From Betaproteobacteria bacterium GR16-43 (GTDB taxonomy: Bacteria; Pseudomonadota; Gammaproteobacteria; Burkholderiales; Usitatibacteraceae): DNA of 64,000 nucleotides. Both the position numbers and the translations under genes were made by a program. The stretch lies in assembly GCA_001953215.1 (NCBI GenBank), contig CP019169.1, positions 2,852,001 through 2,916,000 of the forward strand, written 5' to 3'. A model generated the notes under the pieces. That model was not told the origin of the DNA. It ran no database searches and worked only from the letters and a program-made list of their open reading frames with translations. Below, piece by piece: positions 39,228 through 60,551 of this stretch. Positions within the stretch are counted from its first letter, which is position 1; each line of letters begins with the position of its first letter.

Positions 39228-39259
39228 GCCCGCCGGCCGGAAGGCCCCGCGCAGCGCAC

Positions 39260-39294
39260 GCAACCCCCCCATCCCGCCGGGTTGCCTTTTATTT
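39260..39294 (+). terminator. Rho-independent terminator after ppk1
   Basis: A stem GCAACCC/GGGTTGC with a 12-base loop is followed by CTTTTATTT. It stands 33 bases after the ppk1 stop and overlaps the -35 hexamer of the next promoter. Confidence 0.6.
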
Positions 39295-39311
39295 GTATTG
39301 GGGCATATAGT
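39282..39311 (+). promoter_or_regulatory. Promoter for the 39.3-57 kb cluster
   Basis: TTGCCT (39282-39287), an 18-base spacer and TATAGT (39306-39311) form a near-consensus sigma-70 promoter. It is the only clear promoter before the 20-gene plus-strand run. The start would fall at about 39318, inside the small inverted repeat described next. Confidence 0.6.
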
Positions 39312-39316
39312 AGGCC

Positions 39317-39330
39317 ACCATATCAATGGT
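39317..39330. promoter_or_regulatory. Candidate MarR operator
   Basis: ACCAT-ATCA-ATGGT is a short inverted repeat placed at the expected transcription start of the cluster. A MarR-type repressor is encoded two genes downstream, and such proteins often bind palindromes over their own promoter. The repeat is short, so chance is possible. Confidence 0.35.
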
Positions 39331-39343
39331 CGGGAGGTGGCCC

Positions 39344-40000
39344 ATGCACCGGTTCCGCAGCGCCGAAAGCCTCGAATCCCTGCGCCGCCTCGAGCGGATC
39401 GGGCTCCTCACCCCGGTGGAGGCCGGCCAGCTCCACGCCCTCGGCGGCGATCCGGCGCTCGACGAATGCCTGTCGCGGGCTGAAACGGTGCATGTCCACG
39501 TGAAGGTGGAAGACACCGATGCGCTGCCCCTCGGGGAACTCGCCGCCGCGGGAGCCGTGCTGGACCACGGCAAGCCCGGTTTCGTGAAATTCCGCCTGCC
39601 CGGCGCGGTGAATGCCATCTTCTCGCACATCCCGGTTTCGGACGACGACCTGCGCGAGGCCGCGGGAACGCGCCGGCCCCGGCCTTTCCTGGACCACATC
39701 GGCGTCGACCTGCGCAGCACCGACGAGCGTTCGCGGGCCGCCTTCGCGTCGCTGGACACGCTCGCCTCCACGCGCGGGTGGCGCACGGTGTCGCAGGGCG
39801 GCGAGGGCCAGCCCGTGCGCTGCTGCCACGTGGAGGTGCTCGAGAAGCGGTGGCTCTTCCCCACGGCGCCCGGCGCGCGGCCCGTCGAATTCGCCTTCGG
39901 TCCCCTGCGCGAGAACGCGGCGGGTTCGGGCTGCGACTTGCGGCCCTCGTCGTCCGCGGAAACGCCGAAGTGCTGCGGCGCCGCGCGGCCGCCGGCCTAG
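39344..40000 (+). CDS. Unknown protein at the head of the cluster
   Basis: 218 residues from the ATG with GGGAGG eight bases upstream; another ATG six codons earlier lacks such a site. The protein is soluble with no signal peptide. The middle reads PGFVKFRLPGAVNAIFSHIPVS and FLDHIGVDLRS, then RCCHVEVLEKRWLFP, and the tail has a second Cys pair (KCCGAARPP). I do not recognise a characterised family; the HIGVDLR and CCHVEV strands could suggest a glyoxalase-like (VOC) fold, but this is a guess. It lies 21 bases before the MarR gene. Confidence 0.7.
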   Translation: MHRFRSAESLESLRRLERIGLLTPVEAGQLHALGGDPALDECLSRAETVHVHVKVEDTDALPLGELAAAGAVLDHGKPGFVKFRLPGAVNAIFSHIPVSDDDLREAAGTRRPRPFLDHIGVDLRSTDERSRAAFASLDTLASTRGWRTVSQGGEGQPVRCCHVEVLEKRWLFPTAPGARPVEFAFGPLRENAAGSGCDLRPSSSAETPKCCGAARPPA

Positions 40001-40021
40001 CGCCCGGCGAAGGAACGCCGC

Positions 40022-40579
40022 TTGCGACACGATCACGAGAAGGATGAGGCCGCCGCGGCCCTGTCGCGGCTGGTGGGGGAGATCTCGCTCAACCGCGACT
40101 TCACCGGCCTGCACGAGGCGGCCTTCCTTTCTCTCGCGTGGACCTGGCAGCGCCTCGAGCATGTGGGCCGCGTGTTCTTCCCGCGCTATGGAATCACGGG
40201 CGTGCAGTTCAACGTGCTGATGATCCTCGACGACTACCGCGGCCGTGCCTTCCGGCAGCACGAGCTGGCCGAGATCCTGGTCGTGAATCGCGCCAGCGCG
40301 GGCAGCGTGATCGACCGCATGCAGCGCGCGGGCTGGATCGAGCGCGCGGCCGACCCGCAGGACCGCCGCGCCCAGCTGGTGTCGCTCGCCGCCGCGGGGC
40401 GGGCGAAGCTGAAGGAAGTGAAGGGGCCCTACTACCGCCTCCTCGACAGCGTTTTCGGCGAAGAGGATGCGAAGGAACTTCGCGCCGCGATCCTCTTCTT
40501 CGACCGGTTGCGCGTGCGGCTCGCGAGCGCCGAGGCGCGCCGCAGGCACGCACAGTCCCCACGACATTCGACACCCTGA
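40022..40579 (+). CDS. MarR-family transcription regulator
   Basis: 185 residues. The winged helix core is present: FNVLMILDDYRGRAFRQHELAEILVVNRASAGSVIDRMQRAGWIERAADPQDRRAQLVSL, that is the recognition helix followed by the DxRD-type wing. The start is TTG, preceded by AAGGAAC; no ATG or GTG gives the family N-terminus. Placed near the head of the radical-SAM/acyl cluster and on its strand, it is the likely local regulator; MarR proteins usually repress until a small ligand, often aromatic or lipid-like, binds. Confidence 0.88.
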   Translation: MRHDHEKDEAAAALSRLVGEISLNRDFTGLHEAAFLSLAWTWQRLEHVGRVFFPRYGITGVQFNVLMILDDYRGRAFRQHELAEILVVNRASAGSVIDRMQRAGWIERAADPQDRRAQLVSLAAAGRAKLKEVKGPYYRLLDSVFGEEDAKELRAAILFFDRLRVRLASAEARRRHAQSPRHSTP

Positions 40580-40589
40580 AAGGCCCGCC

Positions 40590-42065
40590 ATGAAGACGCC
40601 CCCGGCATACCGCGAGAGCCGCCCGTACACCTTCTTCAAGATGACGATGAGCACGTGCCCCGAGTGCCTGAAGGTGCTGCCCTGCCAGGTGGTCTTCCAG
40701 GACAACCACGTGTACTTCCTCAAGCACTGCCCCACGCACGGCGCGAGCCAGGCCATGGTGAGCGAGGACGCGGAGTACTACCGCAACGCCTTCAACTACG
40801 CGCAGCCGGGCACGAAGCCGCTGCATTTCTCGACGGAGGTAAAGCACGGGTGCCCGACCGACTGCGGCCTTTGCCCGTCGCACCAGCAGCACACGTGCCT
40901 GCCGATCGTCGAGATCACGGACCACTGCAACCTCGACTGTCCGGTGTGCATCGTGGACAACCAGTATTCCAACCACATGTCGCGCGCGGACTTCAAGAAG
41001 ATCGTCGACGGCCTGATCCGGCACGAGGGCACGCTGGAGACCATCACGCTCTCCGGCGGCGAGCCCACGAGCCACCCCGAGTTCCTCGGCTTCGTGGACG
41101 AGGCCACGCGGCCGGAAGTGGGGCGCGTGTCGGTCGTCACGAACGGCATCGCCATCGCGCGCTCGCGGGAGTTCGCGGAGAAGCTGAAGGAAAAGAACGT
41201 CTACGTGATCCTGCAGCTCGACGGCTTCGACGACGAAATCCAGCGCGCGGTCCGCGGCGTGCCGCTGATGGCGGTCAAGCACCAGGCGCTCGAGTACCTC
41301 GCCGAGTTCGACATTCCGACGCAGATCGCCTACGTGCCCGCGCGCGGCATCAACGAACACCAGCTGGGCGACGCGGTGCGCATGCTCATGGAGCGCGACC
41401 ACGTCCTGTCGCTGCTGATCCAGCCCATCGCCCACACCGGACACGGCGGGGGCATGTTCCCGGTCGACCCGATGGACCGGCTCACGATCCCCGGCGTGAT
41501 CCGGGCGATCGACGAGCAGACCGGCGGCCTGGTCGCGCGCGAAGACTTCATTCCGCTGCCGTGCTCGCACCCGCTGTGCGTTTCGCTCACCTACCTGCTC
41601 AAGCTGGACGACGGCAGCTACCTGCCGTTCCCGCGCTTCGTCGACATGAAGAAGCACCTCGACCTCTTCCAGTCCACCGCCACGCTCGAGCCGGGCGCGA
41701 AGGTGGAGAGCGCGCTGCAGCAGGCGATCATGGATCTCTGGAGCGCGGCGGGCGAGATGCCCAACTGCGACAAGATCATCACCGCGATGCGCAGGGCGCT
41801 CACGGAGATGTTCCCCGGCCGGAAGATGGACCGCGAGGACCTGATCCGCATCGCCGAGCGGCAGGCCAAGACCATCTTCATCCACCACTACATGGACCGC
41901 CACGATTTCGACCTGGAGCGGCTCATGAAGTGCTGCCACCACTATCCGCAGATCGACGGCCGCATCATGCCGGCGTGCGGCTTCAACATGTTCCATCGCG
42001 GCGCCGCGAAGGGCTCGGGCACGCCCGTCACGCTCCATCCGCGGGCCGTCATGCGCGGCGACTAG
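40590..42065 (+). CDS. Radical SAM protein resembling tetraether synthase (COG1964), copy 1
   Basis: 491 residues. A Cys-rich N-terminus holds CPEC (23-26) and CPTH (47-50), as in rubredoxin-like metal sites; a second Cys group lies at 88-103 (CPTDCGLC). The radical SAM motif is CNLDCPVC (Cys113, 117, 120), with GGEPT at 156-160 for SAM binding. More Cys are near the C-terminus (CSHPLC, KCCHHY, PACGFN), enough for extra iron-sulfur clusters. This pattern matches the MJ0619/Tes group, known to join lipid alkyl chains by C-C bonds. Assignment rests on motif order only; its substrate here is not known. Ten bases separate it from the MarR gene. Confidence 0.85.
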   Translation: MKTPPAYRESRPYTFFKMTMSTCPECLKVLPCQVVFQDNHVYFLKHCPTHGASQAMVSEDAEYYRNAFNYAQPGTKPLHFSTEVKHGCPTDCGLCPSHQQHTCLPIVEITDHCNLDCPVCIVDNQYSNHMSRADFKKIVDGLIRHEGTLETITLSGGEPTSHPEFLGFVDEATRPEVGRVSVVTNGIAIARSREFAEKLKEKNVYVILQLDGFDDEIQRAVRGVPLMAVKHQALEYLAEFDIPTQIAYVPARGINEHQLGDAVRMLMERDHVLSLLIQPIAHTGHGGGMFPVDPMDRLTIPGVIRAIDEQTGGLVAREDFIPLPCSHPLCVSLTYLLKLDDGSYLPFPRFVDMKKHLDLFQSTATLEPGAKVESALQQAIMDLWSAAGEMPNCDKIITAMRRALTEMFPGRKMDREDLIRIAERQAKTIFIHHYMDRHDFDLERLMKCCHHYPQIDGRIMPACGFNMFHRGAAKGSGTPVTLHPRAVMRGD

Positions 42066-42066
42066 C

Positions 42067-43437
42067 ATGACGCCCTTCGCGCGCAATCCGGTGGCCGCAC
42101 GCCACGCGAAGCACTTGAACGCGCCCTTCGTCGAGCTGCTCGACGTGTTGGGGTTCGGGCGGGTGTACACGCGCGCGAGCGGGACCTGGATCTGGGACGA
42201 GGAAGGGCGGCGCTACCTCGATGCGCTCGCGGGCTTCGGGGCGTTGAACCTCGGCCACAACCCGCCTCGCATCGCGGCGCGGCTGCGGGCGTTCGTCGAT
42301 GCCGAGGCCCCGAACCTCTACCACGTGGGCCCGTCGCCGTACGCGGGCGAGCTCGCGGAGGCGTTGGCCGCGCGCATGCCGGCGCCGTTGCGCGTGGCGA
42401 TGTTCTCCAGCAGCGGCGCGGAGGCGGTGGAGGCGGGCATCAAGCTCGCCCGGGCGGCCACGCGGCGTTCCGCACTCATCCATTGCGAGGGCGGCTACCA
42501 CGGCACCAACCTCGGCACGCTCTCGGTGATGGACGCGCCGCGCCTGCGCGGGCCGTTCGAACCCTTGCTCGCGGATTGCCGCGCGGTGCCGTTCGGCGAC
42601 CTCCCGGCGCTCGAACGCGCGCTGAAGGACGCGCGGGCCGCGGCCTTCGTGGTCGAGCCCATCCAGGCCGAGGCGGGCGTGCGCCTGCCGCCACCCGGTT
42701 ACCTGCGCGAGGCGGCCGCGCTCTGCAAGCGCCACGGCACGCTGTTCGTGCTCGACGAGGTGCAGACGGGCCTCGGCCGCACGGGCTCGCTGTGGGCCTT
42801 CGAGGCCGAAGGCTTCACGCCCGATGTCGTGGCGCTCGCCAAGTCTTTGGGCGGCGGGATGATGCCCATCGGCGCGACCGTCACGAGCGAGGCGTTGCAT
42901 CACGCCGCCTACGGATCGGCCGACCGCTTCGACCTGCACGGTTCCACGTTCGGCGGCAACTCGCTCGCGTGCGTGGCGGCACTGGAAACCCTGCGCACCA
43001 TCGAGGACGAGCAGCTCGTGCAACGTTCGGCCGAGCTCGGCGCGCGGTTGCTCGGAGGATTGCGCACGCGTCTCGCGGATCATCCGCTGGTGACGGACGT
43101 GCGCGGCCGAGGCTTGCTCGTCGCCGTGGAGATCGGCCCGACGGGCGCGGACTGGATGCAACGCGTCGCGGCGGGAGCCGTCACGATCGCCGCGGAGAAG
43201 GCGATCGGCCAGTGGCTCGCGGTGCAGCTGCTGGAGGACGGCGTGCTGTGCCAGCCGGCCGCGCGCGCCTGGAACGTGCTCAAGCTGCAGCCGCCGCTCG
43301 TCGCGGGCGAGGCGGAGATCGACCGGCTCATCGCGGCCGTCGGCGATGCCTTCGATGCGAACCGGCGCCTCCCGGAGGTGGCCGCACGCCTTTCCGCGCG
43401 GCTCGTTCGACGCTCGGTGGCCCGGGTGGTCGCGTGA
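42067..43437 (+). CDS. Class III aminotransferase, copy 1
   Basis: 456 residues of the fold-type I PLP family. SSSGAEAVEAGIKLARAAT and FVLDEVQTGLGRTGSLWAFE are the cofactor blocks; the Schiff-base lysine is in VVALAKSLGGGMMPIG. Class III enzymes transfer amino groups to aldehydes or ketones remote from a carboxylate (ornithine, acetylornithine, beta-alanine and similar). A long C-terminal tail rich in Arg follows the normal end. It begins one base after the radical SAM gene and overlaps the next by 4. Confidence 0.9.
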   Translation: MTPFARNPVAARHAKHLNAPFVELLDVLGFGRVYTRASGTWIWDEEGRRYLDALAGFGALNLGHNPPRIAARLRAFVDAEAPNLYHVGPSPYAGELAEALAARMPAPLRVAMFSSSGAEAVEAGIKLARAATRRSALIHCEGGYHGTNLGTLSVMDAPRLRGPFEPLLADCRAVPFGDLPALERALKDARAAAFVVEPIQAEAGVRLPPPGYLREAAALCKRHGTLFVLDEVQTGLGRTGSLWAFEAEGFTPDVVALAKSLGGGMMPIGATVTSEALHHAAYGSADRFDLHGSTFGGNSLACVAALETLRTIEDEQLVQRSAELGARLLGGLRTRLADHPLVTDVRGRGLLVAVEIGPTGADWMQRVAAGAVTIAAEKAIGQWLAVQLLEDGVLCQPAARAWNVLKLQPPLVAGEAEIDRLIAAVGDAFDANRRLPEVAARLSARLVRRSVARVVA

Positions 43438-44441
43438 ATCGCACGCTTGCGCCGCTGCGCTTCGCCTGGGGCCTCGCCGCGCGCCGGCCGTTCCAATGCT
43501 TGGTGCAGGTGACCAACCGCTGCAACATGAAATGCGGCTTCTGCGACTTCTGGCCCAACGGCGTGCCCTCGGACCAGGAGCTGACCGTGGACGACTACGT
43601 CCGCCTGTCCGACGCGCTTTCGCGCGTGGGGACGTTCCTCGTGTCGATCGAGGGGGGCGAACCCCTCGTGCGCCGCGACCTGCCGGAGATCGTGCGCGCG
43701 TTCTCGCGCCACCACCTCCCGGTGCTCTTCACCAACGGCTGGCACGTCGATCGCGAGATGGCGCGCACCTTGTTCGACGCGGGCCTGTGGCAGGTGGGCG
43801 TCTCGATCGATTTCGCCGATTCCGCGCGCCATGACATCGCGCGCCGCCTGCCGGGTGCGGGTGCCCGGGCCTGGCAAGCCATCGAGCACTTCAAGGCCGC
43901 CGCGCGCACGCCCGGTCGCCAGGTGCACGTCATGTCCATCGTGATGAAGGACAACGTGGAAGCGCTCGAGCCGCTGCTCGAGGCTTCGGCGGCGCGTGGC
44001 GTGGGGCATTGGCTCACGCTCGTCTCGGACAAGGGGCACCGGCGCGGGCCGGCCTCGACGTTGCCCGCGCCCGGCACCGGCGAGCGCTTGCGCGCGCTGT
44101 GGAAGCGCCATCCGCACCTGCGCACGTTCCGCGACTATCTCGACGGCATCGATCCCTTCCTGCAGGGCGCGCCGGACGCGCCGCGCTGCCACGCGGGCGA
44201 GCAGTCGTTCAACGTCGACCACGTGGGCAACGTCTCGCCCTGCATCGAGAAGATCGACAAGCCCGTGGGCAACGTGCGCCGCGATCCGGTCCCGATGCTG
44301 CTCGATCGCATGAAGGGCCTGGAATCCGTCGCGCGGTGCCAGGACTGCTGGACGCTCTGCCGCGGCTTCGGCCAGGTGATGGGCGCCGGCGGAACGCGCC
44401 GCGGCTGGACCGATCTCGCCAGCCGAATGCGGGGCGCCTGA
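43434..44441 (+). CDS. Radical SAM protein with Cys-rich (SPASM-like) C-terminus
   Basis: 335 residues from a GTG inside the previous stop (GTGA). The SAM cluster motif is CNMKCGFC (Cys30, 34, 37), with SIEGGEPLVRRDL as the GGE motif. The C-terminal segment holds CHAGEQSF, VSPCIEKID and CQDCWTLCRG, the spacing of a SPASM or twitch domain with auxiliary iron-sulfur clusters. Such enzymes modify peptides, sugars, lipids (HpnH-like) or cofactors. It is only distantly like the two Tes-like proteins of the cluster. Its substrate is unknown. Confidence 0.87.
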   Translation: MNRTLAPLRFAWGLAARRPFQCLVQVTNRCNMKCGFCDFWPNGVPSDQELTVDDYVRLSDALSRVGTFLVSIEGGEPLVRRDLPEIVRAFSRHHLPVLFTNGWHVDREMARTLFDAGLWQVGVSIDFADSARHDIARRLPGAGARAWQAIEHFKAAARTPGRQVHVMSIVMKDNVEALEPLLEASAARGVGHWLTLVSDKGHRRGPASTLPAPGTGERLRALWKRHPHLRTFRDYLDGIDPFLQGAPDAPRCHAGEQSFNVDHVGNVSPCIEKIDKPVGNVRRDPVPMLLDRMKGLESVARCQDCWTLCRGFGQVMGAGGTRRGWTDLASRMRGA

Positions 44442-44443
44442 CG

Positions 44444-45229
44444 ATGTGGTTCAACGGCTTTCTCGTGGCCATCGACGGCGCCCTCTCGCAAATGGGGAAT
44501 CCGTCGCTGGCGCGCCATCGCGATGCGCTGGTCCTGGGATGCTTCCGGGAGGATGTCTGGTACCTGCGCGGCATCGGCGCGGTGACGCAGAATCCGTCGC
44601 TCGACCATTTTTGCCGCCGGGACCGGCGCGGCGGATTCATTCCCTGGATCACGCGCGATGCGGGCGCATGCACCGAGAAGCTGGCGCGGCGTGCCGTGCG
44701 CGCCTGGCGTTCGGGCCGCGTCGCGCAGGCGCTGGTGGATCTCGGCCGCGCCGCGCATCCGGTGATCGACATGGCGTGCCCCGTGCATGCGCAGGGCGTC
44801 GCGCACGGAGACGATCCCTACGAGTGGCGCGTGGAAGCGATGGCACAGGAGCTGCGCCGCCTTCCCGCCGCCGAGGCGGCGCGGTGCGAGGACTTCGCGC
44901 AGGCCGCGCGCGATCTCGCGGGCCACGCGCAGAAACACCGCATCGCGCGCACGCGCGACGAGGCGGACGCCCAGGCACGCGCACTCATGCCGCTCGCCGC
45001 GGCGCACACCCGCGCCCTCTTCGAGCGCTTTGTCGCGCAGGCGGGGGACACGGCGAATCCCCGGGAGGATCGCACCGGCGAGGCGCTCGGGGCCTTGGGC
45101 ATGCCGCGCGCCGGACTGGCCAAGTGGTTCGCGCAACTCGAGGGATTCGCGCATCGCCACGGCGGGGAACGCCACTACGCGGAGTTGCTGGATTTCGTCC
45201 ACGGCATGCAGGCGCGCCTCGATGAATGA
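44444..45229 (+). CDS. Zinc-dependent phospholipase C/nuclease-fold protein
   Basis: 261 residues. It has the helical PLC/S1-P1 layout: W at the N-terminus, HRDALVLGCFREDVWY, NPSLDHFC, then LGRAAHPVIDMACPVHAQG with His105, Asp109 and His115 placed as in the zinc-binding helix of the family, and HGDDPYEWRVE. No signal peptide is seen, unlike secreted bacterial phospholipases, so it may act inside the cell or at the membrane. Cleavage of phospholipid head groups is the family activity; here it is inferred from motif order. Two bases separate it from the gene before and its end overlaps the next gene by 8. Confidence 0.7.
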   Translation: MWFNGFLVAIDGALSQMGNPSLARHRDALVLGCFREDVWYLRGIGAVTQNPSLDHFCRRDRRGGFIPWITRDAGACTEKLARRAVRAWRSGRVAQALVDLGRAAHPVIDMACPVHAQGVAHGDDPYEWRVEAMAQELRRLPAAEAARCEDFAQAARDLAGHAQKHRIARTRDEADAQARALMPLAAAHTRALFERFVAQAGDTANPREDRTGEALGALGMPRAGLAKWFAQLEGFAHRHGGERHYAELLDFVHGMQARLDE

Positions 45230-46298
45230 GACCCGCGCCGAGGTCCTCGTGGTCGGTGCGGGTCCCGCGGGGCTCGCCACCGCGGCCTCGCTCGCGGCCG
45301 AAGGCGTGCGCTTCGAGCTCGTCGATGCGCACGGAACCGCGGGTGGCGCCTATGCGCGCGCGTACGGCCCCATGGAGCTCGCGTCGCCCGCGCGCTACAA
45401 CGCCTTGCCCGGCCTTGCGATCGAGCCCGCGGGCGAGTACATGAGCGTCGCCGAGTACGCCGCGTACCTCGCGCGCTACGCGGCGCACCATCGACTCGAG
45501 CCGCGGCGCGCGCGCCTGCGCGCCGTAGCGCCCGCCGGCAGCACCTTCGAGACGACCTTCGACGAGACCGCCGCGACGTCTTCGTATCGTTTCGTCGTGG
45601 TGGCGACCGGCATGTTCGATTTTCCGAAGACCGCCCGCATCGAAGGCCTGGAAAGCTCGACGCTCGAGACGTGCCACGTCGCGCGCTGGCCGGGCGCCGC
45701 GGCCTTCCGTGGCCGTCGACTGCTCATCGTCGGTGCCGCGACAAGTGCGGTGGAGATCGCGGAGGAGTGCGGGCGGGCCGGAATCCCGGTGACGCTGGCC
45801 GCCCGCGGCGCTCGCGTGAAGCGCTTTCCACAGCGCGTCCTGGGCCGCGACATCCACGACTACCTCGTGCGCCTCGAGCGCCTGCCGCGTTTCACGATGC
45901 GTTCGTTCTGCGCCGGAAGCGAGTCGCTGCCCGGAACCGAGATGGGCTTCGCCGATTTCCAGCGGCGCGGCCTCATCCGGATCCGCGATCGCGTGGCGCG
46001 CGTCGATGCACGCACGGTGACGTTCGTCGACGGCGCGCGGGAGGACTTCGACGCCGCCGTGCTGGCGACGGGCTATCGATACGAGACGGACTTCCTTCCC
46101 GACGCGGTCGCGCGCGCCGCCGTGTCGCGCCAACCGCTCGCCGATGCGAACGAGAGCCGGTCGTGGCCGGGACTCTTCGTGATGGGGATGCCGTGCGCGC
46201 GCGGCCTCGCAAGCCCGTTCCTGAGGGGCATCGCGCAGGACGCGCCGCGGGTCGCGGGCCGGATCCGCCGCCGACTGGAGGCCTCCCATGCGCATTGA
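45222..46298 (+). CDS. FAD-dependent oxidoreductase (flavin-monooxygenase type)
   Basis: 358 residues. The FAD motif is VLVVGAGPAGLATAASLA (about 9-26) and a second dinucleotide motif is LLIVGAATSAVEIAEECG, with VVVATGMFDFPK between. The order and the late VLATGYRYETDFLP resemble the FMO/CzcO-like group, which use NADPH and oxygen to oxidise N, S or C. The length is on the short side. The start overlaps the previous gene by 8 bases. Confidence 0.87.
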   Translation: MNETRAEVLVVGAGPAGLATAASLAAEGVRFELVDAHGTAGGAYARAYGPMELASPARYNALPGLAIEPAGEYMSVAEYAAYLARYAAHHRLEPRRARLRAVAPAGSTFETTFDETAATSSYRFVVVATGMFDFPKTARIEGLESSTLETCHVARWPGAAAFRGRRLLIVGAATSAVEIAEECGRAGIPVTLAARGARVKRFPQRVLGRDIHDYLVRLERLPRFTMRSFCAGSESLPGTEMGFADFQRRGLIRIRDRVARVDARTVTFVDGAREDFDAAVLATGYRYETDFLPDAVARAAVSRQPLADANESRSWPGLFVMGMPCARGLASPFLRGIAQDAPRVAGRIRRRLEASHAH

Positions 46299-49348: not shown

Positions 49349-50096
49349 GCGCGAGCCCCTGCGTTGCCTGGTGCTGGGCGGCTCCGGCTACGTCGGCTCG
49401 GCCGTGTGCCGCGCGTTGCATGCGGAGGGCGCGCGCGTTGCCTTCACGTTCAGGTCGCGCGAGAACGAGGCGCGCGTGCTCGAGCGCGAGCTGCCGGGCA
49501 GCCGCGCGATCGCGCTCGACTTTGCGTCGCACGAGGCGGTGGGCGCGGTGGTCGACTCCCTCGCGCGCGACTGGGGCGGGCTCGACGCGCTGGTGCAATG
49601 CGCCGGCACGGCCGGCAACCCGGCGCTGTATCGCAACGATCGCACGCCCAAGCCCGACAAGTTCCTCGACATCGATGCGCCCGGCTGGCACGAGATGATG
49701 GATGTCACCGTCGGCAGCACGTTCGCCGCGTGCCAGGCCGCGGTGCGTGCGATGACCGGCGGTGGACAGATCGTCGTCGTGGGTTCCATGGACGGCGTGA
49801 AGTCGGTGCCGGCGCCGGTCCATTACGCCGCGAGCAAGGGCGCGTTGCGTGCGATGGTGACGGCGCTCGCCCACGAGCTGGGAAAGCGCCGCATCCTCGT
49901 GAACATGGTGGCGCCCGGCCTGCTCGACGGCGGCATGGCGAAGTTGCTGAGCGACGACCTGCTCGCGGACTACGTGAAGCACTGCTCGCTCAAGCGCACC
50001 GGAACCGCGGCCGAGATGGCGGAGCTGGTCGCGTGGCTCGTGATGGAGAACACCTACGTGACCGGACAGTCGATCCTGCTGGACGGAGGCCTGTGA
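49341..50096 (+). CDS. Short-chain dehydrogenase, SDR 2
   Basis: 251 residues. The glycine motif is LGGSGYVGSA, slightly off the usual TGxxxGIG; VVVGSMDGVK and YAASK give Ser/Tyr/Lys. The Asn of the NNAG motif is replaced (QCAGTAGN). GQSILLDGGL closes the protein. The changed motifs suggest a distinct substrate or a reduced activity compared with SDR 1 and 3. The start overlaps the aminotransferase stop by 8 bases. Confidence 0.86.
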   Translation: MAEREPLRCLVLGGSGYVGSAVCRALHAEGARVAFTFRSRENEARVLERELPGSRAIALDFASHEAVGAVVDSLARDWGGLDALVQCAGTAGNPALYRNDRTPKPDKFLDIDAPGWHEMMDVTVGSTFAACQAAVRAMTGGGQIVVVGSMDGVKSVPAPVHYAASKGALRAMVTALAHELGKRRILVNMVAPGLLDGGMAKLLSDDLLADYVKHCSLKRTGTAAEMAELVAWLVMENTYVTGQSILLDGGL

Positions 50097-50650
50097 TGAA
50101 CCTGTCACGCGCCTGGGGCCTGCTGCCGTTCGGCTTCTTCGTCGCCTACCTCGCCATGGCCGTGAACGCCGGGCGCGGCTGGGATGCGTTGTGGGTCTGC
50201 CACGTCGCGAACCTGCTCCTGGCCGCGGGCATTTTCGCGCGCCGGGTGCGGTGGGCCCGCGCGGCACTGCTGCTGATTCTCGCCGGCCTGCCGCTCTGGG
50301 CCGCCGACATGGCGCACACGGGCCACGTCGAAGGGGTCTCGGTTGTCTCGCACCTCGGCGGATTCGCGGTGGCGGTGTTCGCGCTGCTGCGCTCCCCGCG
50401 GCCGCCGGGCCCGGCCTGGGGACTCGCGCTCGCCACCTACCTCGCCGCGCAGCTTGCCGCGCGCCTCTTCGCACCGCCCGCGCTCAACGTGAACGTGGCG
50501 CATGCTCCGTACCCGGGCTGGGAGGGATGGTTCGAAAGCCATGCCGCCTACTGGGTGTTCGTCACCGCGGCCACCGCCGCGGCGCTGTGGCTCGGGGATC
50601 GCCTCCTCCCGCGCCGCTTCCTGCCAACGCACCGGGAGTCCAGACCGTGA
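50096..50650 (+). CDS. Small integral membrane protein, unknown
   Basis: 184 residues with about five or six helices. Several His lie near helix ends (VCHVANLL, DMAHTGHVE, VSHLGGF, ESHAAYW), which might bind haem, a metal or quinone, but no recognised motif links them. I do not recognise the family. The ATG overlaps the SDR 2 stop by one base (TGATG), and its stop overlaps the next gene's GTG. Confidence 0.75.
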   Translation: MNLSRAWGLLPFGFFVAYLAMAVNAGRGWDALWVCHVANLLLAAGIFARRVRWARAALLLILAGLPLWAADMAHTGHVEGVSVVSHLGGFAVAVFALLRSPRPPGPAWGLALATYLAAQLAARLFAPPALNVNVAHAPYPGWEGWFESHAAYWVFVTAATAAALWLGDRLLPRRFLPTHRESRP

Positions 50651-52116
50651 CCTCCACGCTCCTCAAGGAAACGACCAGCCTCTGCACCACGTGCAAGACC
50701 GGCATTCCCGCCGCGATCTTCGAGAGCGACGGGCGCATCGTCATGCGCAAGTCCTGCACGCGGCACGGCGAACAGGAAGTCCTCATCGCCAGCGACGCGG
50801 CGTGGTACCACGGCGCCATGGCGTTTCCGGCGGCGCTGAAGAAGCCGTCGCACGTGGCCAAGCCCGTGGACGCCGGCTGTCCCTACGATTGCGGCGCCTG
50901 CCCGAGCCACGAGCAGTCGGTGTACCTGCCCGTGATTCCCATCACGAGCGCGTGCAACCTCGACTGCCCGATCTGCTACACGATCAACAAGAACGACGGC
51001 GCGTTCCACATGTCGCTGGAGGAATTCGATCGCACGCTCGCCGTGATCCGCCGCAACGATCCGGACATGCGCATCATCAACCTCACCGGCGGAGAACCCA
51101 CGCGGCACCCGCAACTGGTCGACATCGTGCGGCGCTGCCACGCCGCGGGCATCCACCGCGTCACCATCAGCACGCACGGCCTCACCTTCATCCACGACGA
51201 GGACATGCTGAAGGAGCTCGCGGCGCTGGATGCGCGCATCGTGCTCTCCTTCGATTCCTTCGACGAGGAGGTGAACCGGCGCATGCTGGGTGCGACCATC
51301 TTCAAGGCCAAGCTGAAGGTGCTGGAGCAGCTCGCGAAGCACGACGTGGCCACGACGCTGATCCCGGTGCTCGCGATGGGCGTGAACGACCACGAGGTGG
51401 GCGCCCTCATCGACCTCGCGCTGAAGAGCGACTTCATCCGCAGCCTCGAGATCCACACGATGACTTTCACGGGGCAAGGCGGCACCGGCTTCGACGCCAC
51501 GGCGCGCCTCACCGTCCCCGACGTGCTGAAGGGCATCGAGGCCTCCACCGGCGGGCGCATCGCGATGAGCGACTTCGTGCCCTCGCCCTGCGCGCATCCG
51601 CTGTGCTACCAGACGTGCTATCTCCTGGGCACGGGCGGCGGCGAGTTCGTGCCGTTCGCGCGCTTCATGGACCAGCAGGACCTGCGGGCGCTCCTCACCG
51701 ACAACCTCTACATCGAGCCCGGGGAGAAGATGGAGCGCGTGCTGGGCGGCGTGATCGCCGACCTGTGGTCGCGGGAGATGCCGGACGGCACCGCCGATCG
51801 CGTGCTGGCCACGCTGAAGCGCCTGATCGGCGAGCTCTTCCCGGCGCGCCCCGTCCCCTACGCCGAGCAGCAGCGCATCGCGGAGCGCTCGTCGAAGACG
51901 ATCTACATCCACTCGCACATGGACGAGGCCAACTTCGACACCGACCGCATTCGCCAGTGCTGCGTCGGCGTTCCCTCGGCCGACGGCGGCAACGTGCCCA
52001 CGTGCTCGTACAACATCCTCTACCGCGAGCGCGACATGCGCTTCGCTTCGAAGCCCAAGCCCGAGATCAACACGCTGCCGGGCGGAAGGAAATGGCATGC
52101 GATTCATCCTCGTTGA
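50647..52116 (+). CDS. Radical SAM protein resembling tetraether synthase (COG1964), copy 2
   Basis: 489 residues from a GTG in the previous stop. As in copy 1, an N-terminal metal site is CTTC (13-16) with CTRH (37-40), then CPYDCGAC (78-85), and the radical SAM motif CNLDCPIC (Cys103, 107, 110) and LTGGEPTRHP. C-terminal Cys are in CAHPLCYQTC, QCCVGV and PTCSYN. The two copies share this entire Cys layout but differ widely elsewhere, so they are probably old paralogues doing different steps. The end overlaps the dehydratase gene by 20 bases. Confidence 0.85.
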   Translation: MTSTLLKETTSLCTTCKTGIPAAIFESDGRIVMRKSCTRHGEQEVLIASDAAWYHGAMAFPAALKKPSHVAKPVDAGCPYDCGACPSHEQSVYLPVIPITSACNLDCPICYTINKNDGAFHMSLEEFDRTLAVIRRNDPDMRIINLTGGEPTRHPQLVDIVRRCHAAGIHRVTISTHGLTFIHDEDMLKELAALDARIVLSFDSFDEEVNRRMLGATIFKAKLKVLEQLAKHDVATTLIPVLAMGVNDHEVGALIDLALKSDFIRSLEIHTMTFTGQGGTGFDATARLTVPDVLKGIEASTGGRIAMSDFVPSPCAHPLCYQTCYLLGTGGGEFVPFARFMDQQDLRALLTDNLYIEPGEKMERVLGGVIADLWSREMPDGTADRVLATLKRLIGELFPARPVPYAEQQRIAERSSKTIYIHSHMDEANFDTDRIRQCCVGVPSADGGNVPTCSYNILYRERDMRFASKPKPEINTLPGGRKWHAIHPR

Positions 52117-52576
52117 CCGCGTCGACGCGCTCGAGCCCGGGCGCCACATCGAGGGCGTGAAGAACGTCGCGATGAGCGAGGACGTGTTCGCCGACCACTT
52201 CCCCGACAACCCGCTCTACCCGGGAACGCTGCTCGTCGAGTCGCTCGCGCAGCTCGGCGGCTGCCTCGCGGAGTTCAGCTTCCACGCGGGCTCCGAGGAG
52301 ACGCGCCGGGCCGTGCTCATGCACATCCGCGAGGCCAAGTTCCACGCGCCATGCCGTCCCGGCGACCAGTTGCGGATGCGCTGCGAGCTCACGAGCGAGC
52401 TGCAGGAAGTGGCGCTGGTCTCCGCGGTCGCGCGCGTGGGCGAGGCGAAGGTCGCCACCGCGGAGCTCACCTTCCGGCTGGTGCGGGTCGATTCGCCGCG
52501 CCTCCACGAACATCGACAGGCTCTCTATCGCACATGGATGCGGGACCTCGACACCACCAGGCTCGCGCTGCGCTAG
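52097..52576 (+). CDS. FabZ-like 3-hydroxyacyl-ACP dehydratase
   Basis: 159 residues of the hot-dog fold. ADHFPDNPLYPGTLLVESLAQ holds the catalytic His34 and Glu48, the FabZ/FabA signature. CRPGDQLRMRCELTSEL is the second strand set. It removes water from 3-hydroxyacyl-ACP to give enoyl-ACP. It opens the acyl-chain core of the cluster (dehydratase, KS-like, KS, reductase, ACP). It overlaps the genes before and after. Confidence 0.88.
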   Translation: MRFILVDRVDALEPGRHIEGVKNVAMSEDVFADHFPDNPLYPGTLLVESLAQLGGCLAEFSFHAGSEETRRAVLMHIREAKFHAPCRPGDQLRMRCELTSELQEVALVSAVARVGEAKVATAELTFRLVRVDSPRLHEHRQALYRTWMRDLDTTRLALR

Positions 52577-53412
52577 CCGTCACGGCGGCCGGCGCCTGCG
52601 TGCCGCGCGACGGCGACGACACGATGTCGGCCGTCGTCCCGTTCCTGCGCGTGCCGAAGACGCGCAAGTTCATGGGCAAGCAGGACCGCATGGCGGTGAT
52701 CGCCGCGGGCCGCGCGCTCGCGGGCGTGGACCTCCCGGCCGAAGCCCGCATCCGCACGGGTTTCTATCTCGCCGTGGGGTTCATCCCCTTCGAGCGCCCG
52801 GAGATCGAGACGCTCGCCGAGCATTCGGCGGAGGCGGGCGCGTTCTCGATGGCGCGCTTTTCCGGCGAGGCCATCCACCGCGTGAACCCGCTGCTCACCT
52901 TTCGCTGCCTGCCCAACATGCCGATGTTCCACGTGTCGGCCAACTTCGGCGTGATGGGCGGCTACCTCGTCACCTATCCGGGCGCGGGCCAGCTCTACGT
53001 GGCGCTCCAGGAAGCTGCGTGCGCGCTCGAGGCGGGCGAGATCGACCGCGCGTTGGTGGGAGGCGTGGCCGACCAGGACAATTTCCTGGTCGAGTTCGGA
53101 CTGCGCCGGTCGCCCCCGTGCGACGGCGCCCGGCCCGTGGACGCGGCCGCGTTCGTGCTGCTGGAGCGCGAGGCGGATGCGCGGGCGCGCGGCGTGACGC
53201 CGGGCTTGAGGCTCACCGCGCTCGACGTGGCCTACAACCCCCGCGAGGAAGCGACGCACGAAGAGACGCCGAACGCGGGCGGGCACGACTACTTCGGTCC
53301 CGCCTCGTTGCCGATGGCGCTCACCGAAGCATTCCGCGAGCGGCGATCGCTCCGGCATCGCGTGACCACGCGCGACGGCTTCGACGCCGCCAGCACCTGG
53401 GAGGCCGCGTGA
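52534..53412 (+). CDS. Ketosynthase-like protein without catalytic Cys (chain-length-factor type)
   Basis: 292 residues, only the N-terminal half of a ketosynthase. ALAVTAAGACVP matches the KS start, and ALQEAACALEAGEIDRALVGGVAD the helix after the active site, but the Cys of the SACxS block is Asn137 (HVSANFG). Both catalytic His regions are absent. Stand-alone proteins of this kind pair with an active KS as chain length factor in aryl-polyene and type II polyketide systems. The ATG chosen overlaps the dehydratase gene by 43 bases; other starts are possible. Confidence 0.8.
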   Translation: MDAGPRHHQARAALAVTAAGACVPRDGDDTMSAVVPFLRVPKTRKFMGKQDRMAVIAAGRALAGVDLPAEARIRTGFYLAVGFIPFERPEIETLAEHSAEAGAFSMARFSGEAIHRVNPLLTFRCLPNMPMFHVSANFGVMGGYLVTYPGAGQLYVALQEAACALEAGEIDRALVGGVADQDNFLVEFGLRRSPPCDGARPVDAAAFVLLEREADARARGVTPGLRLTALDVAYNPREEATHEETPNAGGHDYFGPASLPMALTEAFRERRSLRHRVTTRDGFDAASTWEAA

Positions 53413-54623
53413 GGCGGGTTGCCGTCACCGGGATGGGCATCGTGTCGCCGCTGGGCACGAGCCTCGGCGAATACCGCGACCGGTTGCTCGCGGGCGAGCC
53501 GGCCGGCGCGCCCATCACGCTCTTCGATCCCGCGGCGCTTTCCACGCGCATCGCCGCCGAGGTGCGCGGCGACGTGGGCGAGCGCGTGGAGCGCGACCGC
53601 AAGGTGGCTTTCGGCGTGGCTGCGGCGCGCCTTGCAATGGCCGACGCGCAGATCCAGGGCGCGCCGCTCACGCCCAACGGCGCGGGCGTATCCATGGGCA
53701 TGGGCCTCGAGCTCTTCTGCATGGACGACATGGTCGAGTTCATGGGCGCGGAGCGCATCCCGGCCGGCCGCGACGCGTCCACGTTCCTGCAGACGCCTTC
53801 GGACACCTGCATCCACCGCATCGCGCGCGAGCATGGGTTGCGCGAACCCCCGATGCTGCACGTGTCCGCATGCGCCGCCTCCACCGACGCCATCGGCGCG
53901 GCCTTTCGCCAGGTGCGGTCCGGACGCCGCCGCTGGATGCTCGCGGGCGGCGCCGATTCGATGATCAACCCGCTGGGCGTGGCCGGCTTCTGCAAGATCG
54001 ATGCGATGACCACGCGCAACGGCGATCCGTCGCGCGCCTCGCGGCCGTTCGACCGCGACCGCGACGGTTTCCTGCTGGGCGAGGGCGCGGCCGTGCTGGT
54101 GCTGGAGGACCTGGACGACGCGCTCGCCCGCGGCGCCCGGATCCACGCCGAGATCCTGGGCTACGGCAGCTCGCTCGACGCGCACGGCATCAGCGAGCCG
54201 CATCCGGAAGGCGAGGGTGCGTTGCTCGCGATGCGCCGCGCGCTCGATTCCGCGGGCGTCGGTGCCGGCGAGGTCACGCACGTGAACGCGCATGGCACCT
54301 CCACGCCGAAGAACGATCCGGTGGAAACGCTCGCGCTGCGCCGGCTCTTCGGCGAGCGTGCGGGAGAGGTCACGGTGAACGCGACGAAGTCGATGATCGG
54401 CCACCTGGTGAGCGCCTCGGGTGCCGCCGAGCTCGTGGCGCACATGGCTTGCGCCGGCGCCGGCTGGATCCATCCCACGATCAACCTCGAGAACCCTGAC
54501 CCGGCCTGCGACCTCGACTACGTGCCGCGCGTGCCGCGCCGCATGCGTTCGCCGCTGGCCCTCAAGAACTCGTTCGGCTTCGGCGGCCAGAACGCCTCGA
54601 TCGTGGTCCGCGCGCCATGCTGA
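53409..54623 (+). CDS. Beta-ketoacyl-ACP synthase (FabF type)
   Basis: 404 residues from a GTG in the previous stop. All three active residues are present: Cys155 in SACAASTD, His295 in NAHGTSTPKND and His332 in KSMIGHLVSASGAAE. PLALKNSFGFGGQNASIVV is the FabF C-terminus. It extends an acyl-ACP by malonyl-ACP condensation. It is a second KS beyond the one needed for general fatty-acid synthesis, so is likely dedicated to the cluster product. Confidence 0.92.
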   Translation: MRRVAVTGMGIVSPLGTSLGEYRDRLLAGEPAGAPITLFDPAALSTRIAAEVRGDVGERVERDRKVAFGVAAARLAMADAQIQGAPLTPNGAGVSMGMGLELFCMDDMVEFMGAERIPAGRDASTFLQTPSDTCIHRIAREHGLREPPMLHVSACAASTDAIGAAFRQVRSGRRRWMLAGGADSMINPLGVAGFCKIDAMTTRNGDPSRASRPFDRDRDGFLLGEGAAVLVLEDLDDALARGARIHAEILGYGSSLDAHGISEPHPEGEGALLAMRRALDSAGVGAGEVTHVNAHGTSTPKNDPVETLALRRLFGERAGEVTVNATKSMIGHLVSASGAAELVAHMACAGAGWIHPTINLENPDPACDLDYVPRVPRRMRSPLALKNSFGFGGQNASIVVRAPC

Positions 54624-55360
54624 AGGGCCGCTTCGTGGTGGTGACGGGTGCCACGCGCGGCATCGGCGAGGCGATCGCACGGACCTGCGCGCGCGAAGGC
54701 GCGGTGGTGGGGCTCAACTATCGCGGCGACGACGGCCGCGCCCGCGCCCTGGCCGAGGCGCTGCGCGGCGAATTCGGCACGGAGGTGGAGCTCCTGCGCT
54801 TCGACGTGAGCGATGCGGCCCAGGTCGAGGCCGCGTGCGAGGGTCCGATCGCCGCGCGGGGCGGCCTCGGCGGCTGGGTCAACAACGCCGCGATCAACCT
54901 GCAGGGCCTGGTCCTGAACCAGGACGACGAAATGATCGCGCGCCAGTTGCGCACCAACGTCGAGGGCACCGTGATCTGTTGCCGCTATGCGCTGCGGCAC
55001 ATGCTCGCGCGGCGCCGGGGCGCGATCGTGAACCTGGGTTCCATCGCGCGCGAGTCCGCGGCGCCGGGCCAGGCGGTCTACGCGGCCACGAAGGGGGCGG
55101 TGGCGGCGCTCACGCGCGCCCTCGCGCTGGAGTACGGCCGCAAGAACGTGCGCGTGAATTGCGTCGAGCCCGGTCCGGTGCGCACGGACATGCTCGAGAA
55201 GACCCTGCAGCTGGCCGAAGGGCGCGTGGAAGACCGCGTTGCCTTGCGGCGGCTGGGCGAGCCCGCGGAGGTGGCCGAAGTCGTGGCCTTCCTCCTCTCG
55301 GACCGCGCGAGCTACATGACCGGCGCCACGGTCGCCGTCGACGGAGGATATTCGCTATGA
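54617..55360 (+). CDS. Beta-ketoacyl-ACP reductase (FabG-like), SDR 3
   Basis: 247 residues, a standard FabG length. VVTGATRGIGEAIA, NNAAIN, Ser in NLGSIARE, YAATK and the end GATVAVDGGYSL are all as expected. It would reduce the 3-ketoacyl-ACP made by the ketosynthase. It overlaps the ketosynthase gene by 7 bases and the nitroreductase by 4. Confidence 0.91.
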   Translation: MLKGRFVVVTGATRGIGEAIARTCAREGAVVGLNYRGDDGRARALAEALRGEFGTEVELLRFDVSDAAQVEAACEGPIAARGGLGGWVNNAAINLQGLVLNQDDEMIARQLRTNVEGTVICCRYALRHMLARRRGAIVNLGSIARESAAPGQAVYAATKGAVAALTRALALEYGRKNVRVNCVEPGPVRTDMLEKTLQLAEGRVEDRVALRRLGEPAEVAEVVAFLLSDRASYMTGATVAVDGGYSL

Positions 55361-55998
55361 ACCTCGAGGAACTCATCCGCTCGCGGCGCTCGATTCGCCG
55401 CTACAAGCCCGAGGCGCCGCCGCGCGAGACGATCGAGGCGCTGATCGCGGTGGCGGCGCTCGCACCCTCGGCGAGCAACAAGCAGCCGTGGCGCTTCTTC
55501 GCCTGCGACGACCGCGCGACGATCGACCGCATGGCGGCCGCGGTGCAGGAGAGCGTCGATCGCATCGCCGCACGGGTGGACGCGCGCCTGATGGAGCAGT
55601 TCCGTGCCTATGGCGACTACTTCGTGCGCTTCCGCGAGGCGCCGGTGGTGATCGTCCCCGTCTTCCGCGAGATGGCGGTGCTGTCGCATCTCGTGGACGC
55701 GGACGTGGACGCGGCCGACCGCGAGCGCATCGCCGAGCTCGAATTCAACTCGGGCATCGTCTCGGCGTCGCTCGCGTTGCAGAACCTGATGCTCTACGCG
55801 CACTCGATCGGCCTCGGGTCGTCGTCGATGACCGGTCCGTTGCTGGCGGCTCCGGCGATCAAGGCCATCCTCGGCATCCCGCCGTCGTGGCGCATCGTCG
55901 CGATGGTGCCCGTGGGCTTTCCCGCCGAAGCGCCGGCGCCCACGCCGCGCAAGGCCGTGGAAGACGTGGTGCGCTGGAGCCCGGAGGTGCGGACATGA
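55357..55998 (+). CDS. Nitroreductase-family flavoprotein
   Basis: 213 residues. LIRSRRSIRRYKPEAPP at the N-terminus is the FMN-phosphate-binding start of the family, with PSASNKQPWRF next. IGLGSSSMTGPL and C-terminal VPVGFPAEAPAP complete the pattern. Members use NAD(P)H and FMN to reduce quinones, nitro groups or enones; some reduce or desaturate intermediates in natural-product routes. In this set it could act as an enoyl reductase, since no dedicated one is seen. The ATG overlaps the SDR 3 stop. Confidence 0.88.
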   Translation: MNLEELIRSRRSIRRYKPEAPPRETIEALIAVAALAPSASNKQPWRFFACDDRATIDRMAAAVQESVDRIAARVDARLMEQFRAYGDYFVRFREAPVVIVPVFREMAVLSHLVDADVDAADRERIAELEFNSGIVSASLALQNLMLYAHSIGLGSSSMTGPLLAAPAIKAILGIPPSWRIVAMVPVGFPAEAPAPTPRKAVEDVVRWSPEVRT

Positions 55999-56384
55999 CG
56001 ACCATGGACAGGAGCACCATCTTTCCGGCCGTGGCCGATCTTCTCGCCGACAGCCTCGCCATCGACGCGGCGCGGATCCAGCCCGATTCGCGCCTCATCG
56101 ACGACCTCGGCATGGACTCCCTCGACTTCGTGGAGCTCGTCTTCAGCCTCGAGCGGCGATTCGACGTGAAGATGCGTAGCGCCGAGCTGGACATGCTGCT
56201 GCGCGCGGAGTTCGACCCGAAGCGGCTCGTGGAGGGCCGGTACCTGCCTCCGGAGGACGTGGCGCGGATGCTCGAATGGATGCCCAACCTCGCGAGGGCC
56301 GATGCCGCGCGCGTCACGCCCCGGGATCTCTACGGGTTCATCAGCGTCGAATCCCTGGTCCGGCTGGTGGATCGCCGGCTCTGA
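55995..56384 (+). CDS. Acyl carrier protein with enlarged C-terminal region
   Basis: 129 residues compared with about 80 for ordinary ACPs. The phosphopantetheine Ser is Ser42 in LGMDSLDFVEL. After helix II (to about 58) some 45 extra residues (about 62-108, RAEFDPKRLVEGRYLPP and on) come before the last helix (DLYGFISVESLVRLVDRRL). The insert is mostly polar and helical. It may help recognition by the cluster's own enzymes. The gene follows the nitroreductase by overlap. Confidence 0.87.
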   Translation: MTTMDRSTIFPAVADLLADSLAIDAARIQPDSRLIDDLGMDSLDFVELVFSLERRFDVKMRSAELDMLLRAEFDPKRLVEGRYLPPEDVARMLEWMPNLARADAARVTPRDLYGFISVESLVRLVDRRL

Positions 56385-56980
56385 TGCTGCTGCCGGCCGC
56401 GCTTTCGCCGCTGGTGCCCGCGCCGCTCTACCTTCCGTATTGCCTCGCGTTGCTTGCCCTTGCGCGCCGGCGGCTCGATCGCCGCGGGGAGGTGGAGGGC
56501 GTGCCCGTGTACGAGCTTGCCGGGGGCGGCGCGCACGATGCGATCGGCATCGGCCTGGGAAATGGCGGCCTGATCCTCGCTTCCCGGGCCGCGATGGCCG
56601 ATGCCGCGTGGCCCGGGCTGCGCGCGCATCTCGCGAGCCACGTCCGGCGTCGCGACGGATTGCGCGTGTCCTTCGTCATCACGACTTCGGTCCTGCTGGC
56701 CGCGTGGCAGCCGTGGGTCCTCGTGCCGGGCGCGCTGTGGCTCGCGTGGACGGCGCGGGACGCCGAGCGGCATGCGGATCTCGCCGCCGCGAGGGCCGTG
56801 CGCCACGACGGGGATGCCCTGGCGGCGTTCGCGCGATATGCGGCGATCGATGGCGCGCGCGGCCGCAGCCTTCCGTTCCGATGGACGCTCGAAGGGCTGC
56901 GGGCGCTGCGCCTGTCGTCGCATCCGCGCCCAGAGCTGCGGCGCGAGAACTTCCTGCGGATGGCCTCGACGGCGGCCTAG
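56384..56980 (+). CDS. M48-peptidase-like protein lacking the catalytic Glu
   Basis: 198 residues with two hydrophobic segments (about 8-28 and 97-122). GLGNGGLILASRAAM and AHLASHVRRRDG align with the M48 (HtpX-like) block that normally reads HExxH; here it is HLASH at 82-86, so the His pair remains but the Glu is Leu. DAERHADLAAARAV fits the third zinc ligand helix and SSHPRPELRRENF the usual late STHP block. It is probably inactive as a protease and may be a scaffold or have a new role. It overlaps the convergent binding-protein gene by 4 bases and closes the cluster. Confidence 0.75.
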   Translation: MLLPAALSPLVPAPLYLPYCLALLALARRRLDRRGEVEGVPVYELAGGGAHDAIGIGLGNGGLILASRAAMADAAWPGLRAHLASHVRRRDGLRVSFVITTSVLLAAWQPWVLVPGALWLAWTARDAERHADLAAARAVRHDGDALAAFARYAAIDGARGRSLPFRWTLEGLRALRLSSHPRPELRRENFLRMASTAA

Positions 56981-58095: not shown

Positions 58096-58153
58096 GACGT
58101 TCTCCCTGATGGACCGCGCGCTCCCTCTGCCGGGGACCGTCGCGGCTGAAAAA

Positions 58154-58933: not shown

Positions 58934-58946
58934 GGCGGGCCTCCGT

Positions 58947-59915: not shown

Positions 59916-59935
59916 GTGATTCTCCTTCGAAAAAT

Positions 59936-60525: not shown

Positions 60526-60551
60526 GGCCGCGCCCTAGTTCCAGGACCTTC

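Follow-up and report, generated by a model that had tools for sequence, protein, structure and literature searches.

What does a bacterium make with a run of 20 genes that joins Tes-like radical S-adenosylmethionine (SAM) enzymes to an acyl-chain assembly set? The run lies in the window analysed here, a stretch of 64,000 nucleotides from Betaproteobacteria bacterium GR16-43 (contig CP019169.1, positions 2,852,001 to 2,916,000), and belongs to a mobile biosynthetic cluster family that spans several phyla and carries an unusual subfamily of Tes-like radical SAM enzymes. As to its function, we give about an even chance to a horizontally acquired operon for an aminated acyl product that is cross-linked or cyclised through C-C bonds, most likely an aminolipid associated with membranes. 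For bacterial relatives of the tetraether synthase Tes, sequences are known, and their function is mostly hypothetical (PMC9433317, PMC8941075); the cluster offers a testable route to the role of some of these enzymes.

Twenty consecutive open reading frames occupy the plus strand from 39344 to 56980, in a genome assembled as a single contig of 4.8 Mb. With the starts chosen here, 14 of the 19 junctions overlap and 17 have a gap of at most 10 nt, the wider ones being g1-g2 and g14-g15, where the start of g15 is uncertain; such tight coupling of 20 genes fits one operon. Pfam and NCBIfam place in it a MarR regulator, two HMPTM/Tes-like radical SAM proteins, one radical SAM protein with a weak SPASM match, two class III aminotransferases, three short-chain dehydrogenases/reductases (SDRs), a Pyr_redox_3 flavoprotein, a nitroreductase-fold protein, a FabZ-like dehydratase, a full ketosynthase (KS), a short KS-like protein, an acyl carrier protein (ACP) and an LPG_synthase_TM protein. 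The original prediction, made from the letters of this stretch alone, had described a plus-strand cluster of 20 genes, and its genes and their coupling are confirmed, as are most of its domains. Of its labels for 18 genes, the remaining two being g1 (no family) and g12 (a membrane protein), most agree with the family searches; the exceptions are the phospholipase C of g6, whose match to PF00882 is below threshold (E 0.0011, 19.3 bits, cut-off 26.8), and the M48 protein of g20 (E 0.15). In window coordinates, the genes are:

g1, 39344..40000, plus strand: protein of 218 amino acids, matching no family, with no counterpart found in the relatives
g2, 40073..40579, plus strand: MarR-family regulator; start uncertain, GTG 40073 or TTG 40022
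g3 (rSAM-A), 40590..42065, plus strand: Tes-like radical SAM protein
g4 (AT3-A), 42067..43437, plus strand: PigE-like class III aminotransferase
g5, 43434..44441, plus strand: radical SAM protein, whose C-terminus weakly matches SPASM (20.6 bits; cut-off 21.5)
g6, 44444..45229, plus strand: weakly similar to Zn-dependent phospholipase C, under the Pfam cut-off
g7, 45222..46298, plus strand: FAD/NAD(P)H oxidoreductase, Pyr_redox_3, FMO-like
g8, 46288..47304, plus strand: LPG_synthase_TM flippase-like membrane protein
g9 (SDR1), 47301..48056, plus strand: FabG-like SDR
g10 (AT3-B), 48053..49348, plus strand: PigE-like class III aminotransferase
g11 (SDR2), 49341..50096, plus strand: SDR
g12, 50093..50650, plus strand: membrane protein; best structural match in the PDB TMEM164 (weak)
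g13 (rSAM-B), 50647..52116, plus strand: Tes-like radical SAM protein
g14, 52097..52576, plus strand: FabZ-like dehydratase
g15, 52600..53412, plus strand: short Cys-less KS, chain-length-factor-like; start ATG 52534 or GTG 52600
g16, 53409..54623, plus strand: FabF-like KS with Cys-His-His
g17 (SDR3), 54617..55360, plus strand: FabG-like SDR
g18, 55357..55998, plus strand: nitroreductase-fold protein
g19, 55995..56384, plus strand: ACP, 129 amino acids
g20, 56384..56980, plus strand: formerly labelled M48-like, not significant

The Tes-like pair, g3 and g13, share 36% identity and both combine an HMPTM zinc ribbon with a radical SAM domain. The best solved relative of g13 is M. jannaschii Tes (MJ0619, MjTes, also GDGT-MAS; 223.6 bits, E 3.5e-65). 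Its AlphaFold model, built from an input alignment of 27 sequences with a mean predicted local distance difference test (pLDDT) of 90.6, finds 7TOL (E 1.1e-39) and 7TOM as the top Foldseek matches, with a template-modelling (TM) score of 0.78 by query length over 495 alignment columns, while the remaining 48 matches listed score 0.38 or less. The ligands described for Tes (PMC9433317) were placed on 43 Tes-like sequences, both window proteins included, through the alignment of g13 with MjTes, the His of the N-terminal cluster and the cysteines of the C-terminal cluster being chosen by conservation and not by published numbering. All 43 keep the radical SAM cysteines and the presumed N-cluster His. 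The N-terminal cluster cysteines are kept in 42, and of the three cysteines of the C-terminal cluster one is present in all 43 and each of the other two in 42; the fourth ligand of the rubredoxin-type iron site is His in 32/43 and Cys in 10/43. The likeness to Tes thus extends to fold, length, rubredoxin-like site, the cysteines of both auxiliary clusters and the CX3CX2C motif. Unlike Tes, g3 and g13 remain under the cut-off of the Tes equivalog model (NF045702, 450 bits), and likewise under that of TrsS (NF045646, 490 bits); they have His in place of Met439, and they sit with a KS/ACP set and aminotransferases. They are built like Tes, yet they are not Tes by the criteria tested. Of the three radical SAM enzymes, these two alone are Tes-like; the third, g5, has the weak SPASM match.

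In a tree of the 43 sequences, three paralogous clades stand out (support 96/93 for A, 91/85 for B and 100/99 for C), plus four sequences of simpler clusters that branch more deeply; two rows are odd, G539 being partial and G445_012 on a long branch. The clades also differ at the column of Tyr459, a residue reported to be completely conserved in archaeal Tes homologues (PMC9433317): Tyr is found in all 15 members of clade A, including g3, Val or Ile in all 14 of clade B, g13 having Val, and Asn or Asp in all 9 of clade C. Clade C, a third Tes-like paralogue, is frequent in the relatives and does not occur in the window. Planctomycetota-derived rows (G416, G833) sit among Myxococcota-derived ones, a pattern that fits transfer between phyla. 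An extra Tes-like radical SAM gene beside the G445 cluster (L044:13491-15152), on a long branch, encodes Met at the Met439 position.

How complete are the acyl-chain and amination sets that accompany the pair? The KS g16 has the Cys-His-His residues, as do 17/17 members of its family, and the short KS g15 has no Cys at the active-site column, like all 11 Cys-less KS proteins, that of the window included. An active and a Cys-less ketosynthase, as had been predicted, therefore adjoin each other in the manner of a type II ketosynthase pair. The DSL motif of ACPs was seen in 7/12 ACP candidates; at 129 amino acids, g19 exceeds the usual length of a free-standing ACP; its relatives have 123-144. 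For both aminotransferases the best NCBIfam model is PigE of prodigiosin biosynthesis (NF053554; 435.5 and 371.3 bits), and the top PDB match of g4 is 4PPM (310.6 bits), which we take to be PigE. Unlike PigE, g4 and g10 match the aminotransferase part alone (about positions 377-729 of 837) and stay below the model cut-off of 850 bits. The catalytic Lys and Asp are present in both, as in 19/19 sequences across the aminotransferase family. The membrane protein g12 has no family match in Pfam or NCBIfam; M1, W34, C36, G65, H87, N132 and N134 are invariant in 12/12 sequences, and its model (pLDDT 91.1) is helical, with six long helices.

Much of this gene set travels together elsewhere. A scan of genome contigs found five relatives, titled Bordetella parapertussis, Deltaproteobacteria (Myxococcota in the taxonomy), Planctomycetota, Pseudomonadota and Polyangiaceae; the closest cluster is that of the 6.4 Mb metagenome bin titled Bordetella parapertussis (L009/L027/L028), a species label that seems doubtful. 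With g13 as query at E <= 1e-80, matches were obtained in 11/282 genomes of the phylum of the Polyangiaceae record and in 6/294 of that of the Planctomycetota record, the bait genome included in each. Most relatives are thus Myxococcota or Planctomycetota, plus two bins titled Pseudomonadota. Closer to home the picture is empty: g13 relatives were found only in the genome itself among 398 genomes sampled from its phylum (397 others without) and, at E <= 1e-100, among 399 sampled from its order, and none was found in five congeneric genomes at E <= 1e-60. The search for a conserved neighbourhood that the original prediction proposed does find the genes together in other genomes, mostly in Myxococcota and Planctomycetota; the 398 other genomes sampled from the window's order gave no g13 relative at that last threshold for the order.

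Neighbourhoods were read in 20 positive genomes, namely the five from the contig scan, ten further ones from the Polyangiaceae phylum and five from the Planctomycetota phylum; three of them (G479, G822, G743) were read by tblastn. As rSAM-B served as bait, the radical SAM counts are biased and the evidence rests on the other genes. Near the radical SAM genes we counted SDR1 in 20, rSAM-A in 16, rSAM-B in 15 (leaving out G732 and G975, where short partial matches belong to another radical SAM protein), SDR2 in 15, the dehydratase in 14, KS in 13, AT3-B and the nitroreductase-fold protein in 12 each, g12 and the Cys-less KS in 11 each, ACP in 10, rSAM-C, the SPASM-type radical SAM and SDR3 in 9 each, and AT3-A in 6. 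The core that the window shares with its relatives amounts to about 14 genes. These counts are too low in places, as g12 of G417 was missed and several contigs are only 4.5-20 kb long. In a repeated module made up of radical SAM, SDR, aminotransferase and SDR (e.g. in G833, G418 and G415), rSAM-C is the first gene. At the thresholds used, the genes for the MarR regulator, the M48-like protein, g1 and the flippase were found in 0/20 relatives, G415 having a 27% flippase match. What this adds is that three paralogous Tes-like clades are tied, in several phyla, to a type II acyl-chain set and to aminotransferases.

Further neighbours were sampled with Pfam, among them 15 families of unannotated proteins common to at least two contigs; they include fatty-acid hydroxylases, an extra KS-like protein, ABC transporter genes, a hexapeptide protein and others. 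Fatty-acid hydroxylase genes stand near four of the clusters, with PF04116 beside G418, members of the BLAST family of that gene in G485 and G642, and one in G415, which favours a lipid product. A His-rich polytopic membrane protein is also encoded near the clusters of four genomes (L028:4096-5241; G416, G417, G833), and the one member tested has no Pfam match.

How did the operon come to lie where it does? In each of the four congeneric genomes with a readable junction, bamD is the next gene after ppk; the matched frames are about 20-30 nt apart in three of these genomes and about 230 nt apart in the fourth. In the window the two genes are separated by 21.3 kb, taken up by the operon and three further genes:

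39228..60551, no strand assigned: insertion between ppk and bamD, missing from 4/4 congeneric genomes with a readable junction
56977-60353: genes for a periplasmic binding protein, a class II aldolase and a TctC protein, to the right of the operon in the same insertion

The operon has a GC content of 0.707, against 0.674 for either flank; at third codon positions (GC3) there is no difference (0.908 versus 0.905), and no tRNA genes were found in the window. Horizontal acquisition is well supported, resting more on the empty sites than on composition. TctC genes also occur near the G414 cluster (L027, L028).

What, then, could the operon make? We infer both the product and the order of reactions as follows. 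By their families, the KS g16 with its Cys-less partner g15, the SDR g17, the FabZ-like g14 and the flavoprotein g18 would build an acyl or polyene chain on the ACP g19. On that chain, or on a lipid bearing it, g3 and g13 would then take hydrogen from unactivated carbons and form C-C bonds. As in Tes, whose fold and ligands they have, this would proceed by way of an adduct between the substrate and a sulfur of the C-terminal auxiliary cluster. The SDRs g9 and g11 would set carbonyl or alcohol groups, the PigE-like g4 and g10 would aminate aldehydes or ketones, and g5 might contribute a further radical step. C(sp3)-C(sp3) bonds between lipid chains are also made by Gms, the synthase of GMGT lipids and a SPASM-type radical SAM enzyme (PMC11186832), and g5, by description and with its weak SPASM match, might be of this type. 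Finally, g12 might use its invariant Cys and His to transfer an acyl group onto a phospholipid or off one, as its weak fold match hints, and g8 might flip the product. The resemblance of the g12 model to TMEM164 is a weak lead for this last step; TMEM164 has Cys and His as catalytic residues. It moves acyl chains between phospholipids (PMC10474074). An aminated, cross-linked or cyclised acyl product, as had been proposed for the locus, is the best-supported inference from the Tes-like enzymes, the acyl core and the aminotransferases. The lipid nature of the product is a softer part of the proposal, based on the weak likeness of g12 to TMEM164, the flippase-like gene and the hydroxylase genes of the four relatives. 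The product would perhaps represent a new class of cross-linked or carbocyclic aminolipid.

In a bolder form of this proposal, which strikes us as quite improbable, the product is a bolaform aminolipid: the Tes-like enzymes would join two acyl chains tail to tail, and amination of both ends, with one PigE-like aminotransferase and its SDRs per end, would yield a membrane-spanning, double-ended amino alcohol. Were this so, it would be a bacterial counterpart of the two-headed, rhizochalin-type sphingolipids of sponges, whose coupling, according to PMC11767167, is not understood as to mechanism or enzymes.

Several observations weigh against the aminolipid proposal. For g12, Foldseek gives TMEM164 as the nearest PDB entry with a probability of 0.99 and a TM score of 0.63 by query length, yet with an E of 0.32; in a library of viral structures no match to its model had an E below 0.11. 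Searches with g12 by sequence and by profile brought up no relative, and no match to TMEM164. Part of the lipid argument involves g6, g7 and g8, which at the thresholds used occur in at most one of the 20 relatives (the FAD and phospholipase C-like genes in one each). No KS turned up in the long stretches read of G417 (40 kb out of a contig of 73 kb) and G652 (two contigs, with 38 and 20 kb read), or in five genomes whose contigs are shorter. No thioester-release enzyme was identified, nor did the Pfam-sampled neighbours include a shared one. SDRs and class III aminotransferases are common families, whose counts alone weigh little. At the level of mechanism, g3 and g13 score about equally with the TrsS and Tes models, and the Met439 column holds His in 41/43 sequences including both window proteins (Met in one, one uncovered), so that the chemistry may differ from that of Tes.

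Which explanations could take its place? The main rival, unlikely in our view but of real weight, is that the operon makes a diffusible polyketide-derived amine or N-heterocycle, a pigment or signal akin to a prodiginine pyrroline, instead of a membrane lipid. The KS pair would produce a short polyene, the PigE-like transaminases would aminate an aldehyde that cyclises, and the Tes-like enzymes would close carbocycles. That PigE is nearest to both aminotransferases speaks for this, as do the patchy distribution, which fits secondary metabolism, and the combination of KS, Cys-less KS, ketoreductase (KR), dehydratase and ACP, which is a type II polyketide set. It fits poorly with the membrane protein g12, the flippase-like gene and the fatty-acid hydroxylases of four relatives, and with the lipids contained in the crystals of Tes (PMC9433317).

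The polyketide set itself invites comparison. Aryl polyene and highly reducing type II polyketide clusters comprise KS, Cys-less KS, KR, dehydratase and ACP, and aryl polyene clusters have, in addition, an MMPL exporter and acyltransferases. By gene content, not by sequence, the window resembles aryl polyene clusters in the first five functions, and unlike them it adds radical SAM enzymes and aminotransferases. No Pfam match to an MMPL exporter or an acyltransferase was obtained among the 20 genes, in agreement with the original prediction; g12 may be an acyltransferase of another kind. The swf cluster of sponge symbionts also pairs polyketide or fatty-acid synthase (PKS/FAS) functions with a radical SAM gene, for a product not known (PMC3908369), yet as described in the accessible part of that paper it differs from the window in its type I PKS, in the predicted B12-binding domain of SwfC and in being a three-gene operon without an aminotransferase. 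In searches of open-licence PMC papers, no described pathway with the present gene set was found.

A second rival, which we hold to be rather improbable, concerns the radical step: the Tes-like pair would perform other chemistry, such as dehydrogenation or the transfer of methyl groups or sulfur, and perhaps be nearer to TrsS. It draws on the scores just mentioned, g3 being higher with TrsS than with Tes (272.9 versus 259.4 bits) and g13 slightly lower (248.0 versus 256.1), on the replacement of Met439, and on the retention of Tyr459 in clade A only. The labile Met439 is reported to be completely conserved among 1000 archaeal Tes homologues (PMC9433317), and its replacement by His at the auxiliary cluster poses a specific mechanistic question. 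What speaks for Tes-type chemistry is the full-length structural match and the retention of the cofactor ligands; moreover, the M439A variant of Tes is still active and Y459 is not essential (PMC9433317), so the exchange of Met439 for His is compatible with Tes-type chemistry. C(sp3)-C(sp3) bonds between lipid chains are also made by Gms, the synthase of GMGT lipids and a SPASM-type radical SAM enzyme (PMC11186832), and g5, by description and with its weak SPASM match, might be of this type.

A ladderane or branched-tetraether (brGDGT) pathway is very improbable. It would account for the coincidence of Tes-like enzymes with FAS-like genes and for the Planctomycetota carriers, and in the ladderane candidate clusters of the anammox bacterium Kuenenia FAS genes adjoin radical SAM genes, with phytoene-desaturase-like genes also named (PMC2649909). 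The window shares the first of these features, as judged from the description of the known clusters and not from radical SAM sequences. It differs from them in its aminotransferases, which go unmentioned in the accessible text of that paper, and the matches of g7 to phytoene-desaturase models are weak and limited to the FAD site (24.7 bits against 238.1). HZS_alpha matches do occur in two of the six positive Planctomycetota, G416 (one) and G975 (16), where we read them as non-anammox paralogues; HZS_alpha (PF18582) alone is not specific for anammox, being matched in 57/294 genomes, several with at least ten matches. Genomes were taken as likely anammox if HZS_alpha matched once or twice and the frame listed measured 800-850 amino acids, a selection of our own that comprises 17 genomes. 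None of these 17 has rSAM-B at E <= 1e-80, and none is among the six positives, which bears out the distinction from anammox ladderane clusters drawn in the original prediction.

A chance neighbourhood of unrelated metabolic genes, for which the commonness of SDRs and class III aminotransferases might be cited, has next to no probability, since much of the gene set recurs in other genomes across phyla, the operon is coupled, and both of the more distant Tes-like genes (about 30% identical) that served as controls from the window's order are without these neighbours save for one SDR match.

Two further observations concern other loci. Planctomycetota genomes also carry a simpler version of the cluster, with KS, Cys-less KS, dehydratases, SDRs, a nitroreductase-fold protein and a deeper Tes-like radical SAM protein (L061, L062), part of which is seen on the short contig L063. 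In the genome of the window, but outside it, three radical SAM matches lie close together on the minus strand (G000:C1:2780476-2783949).

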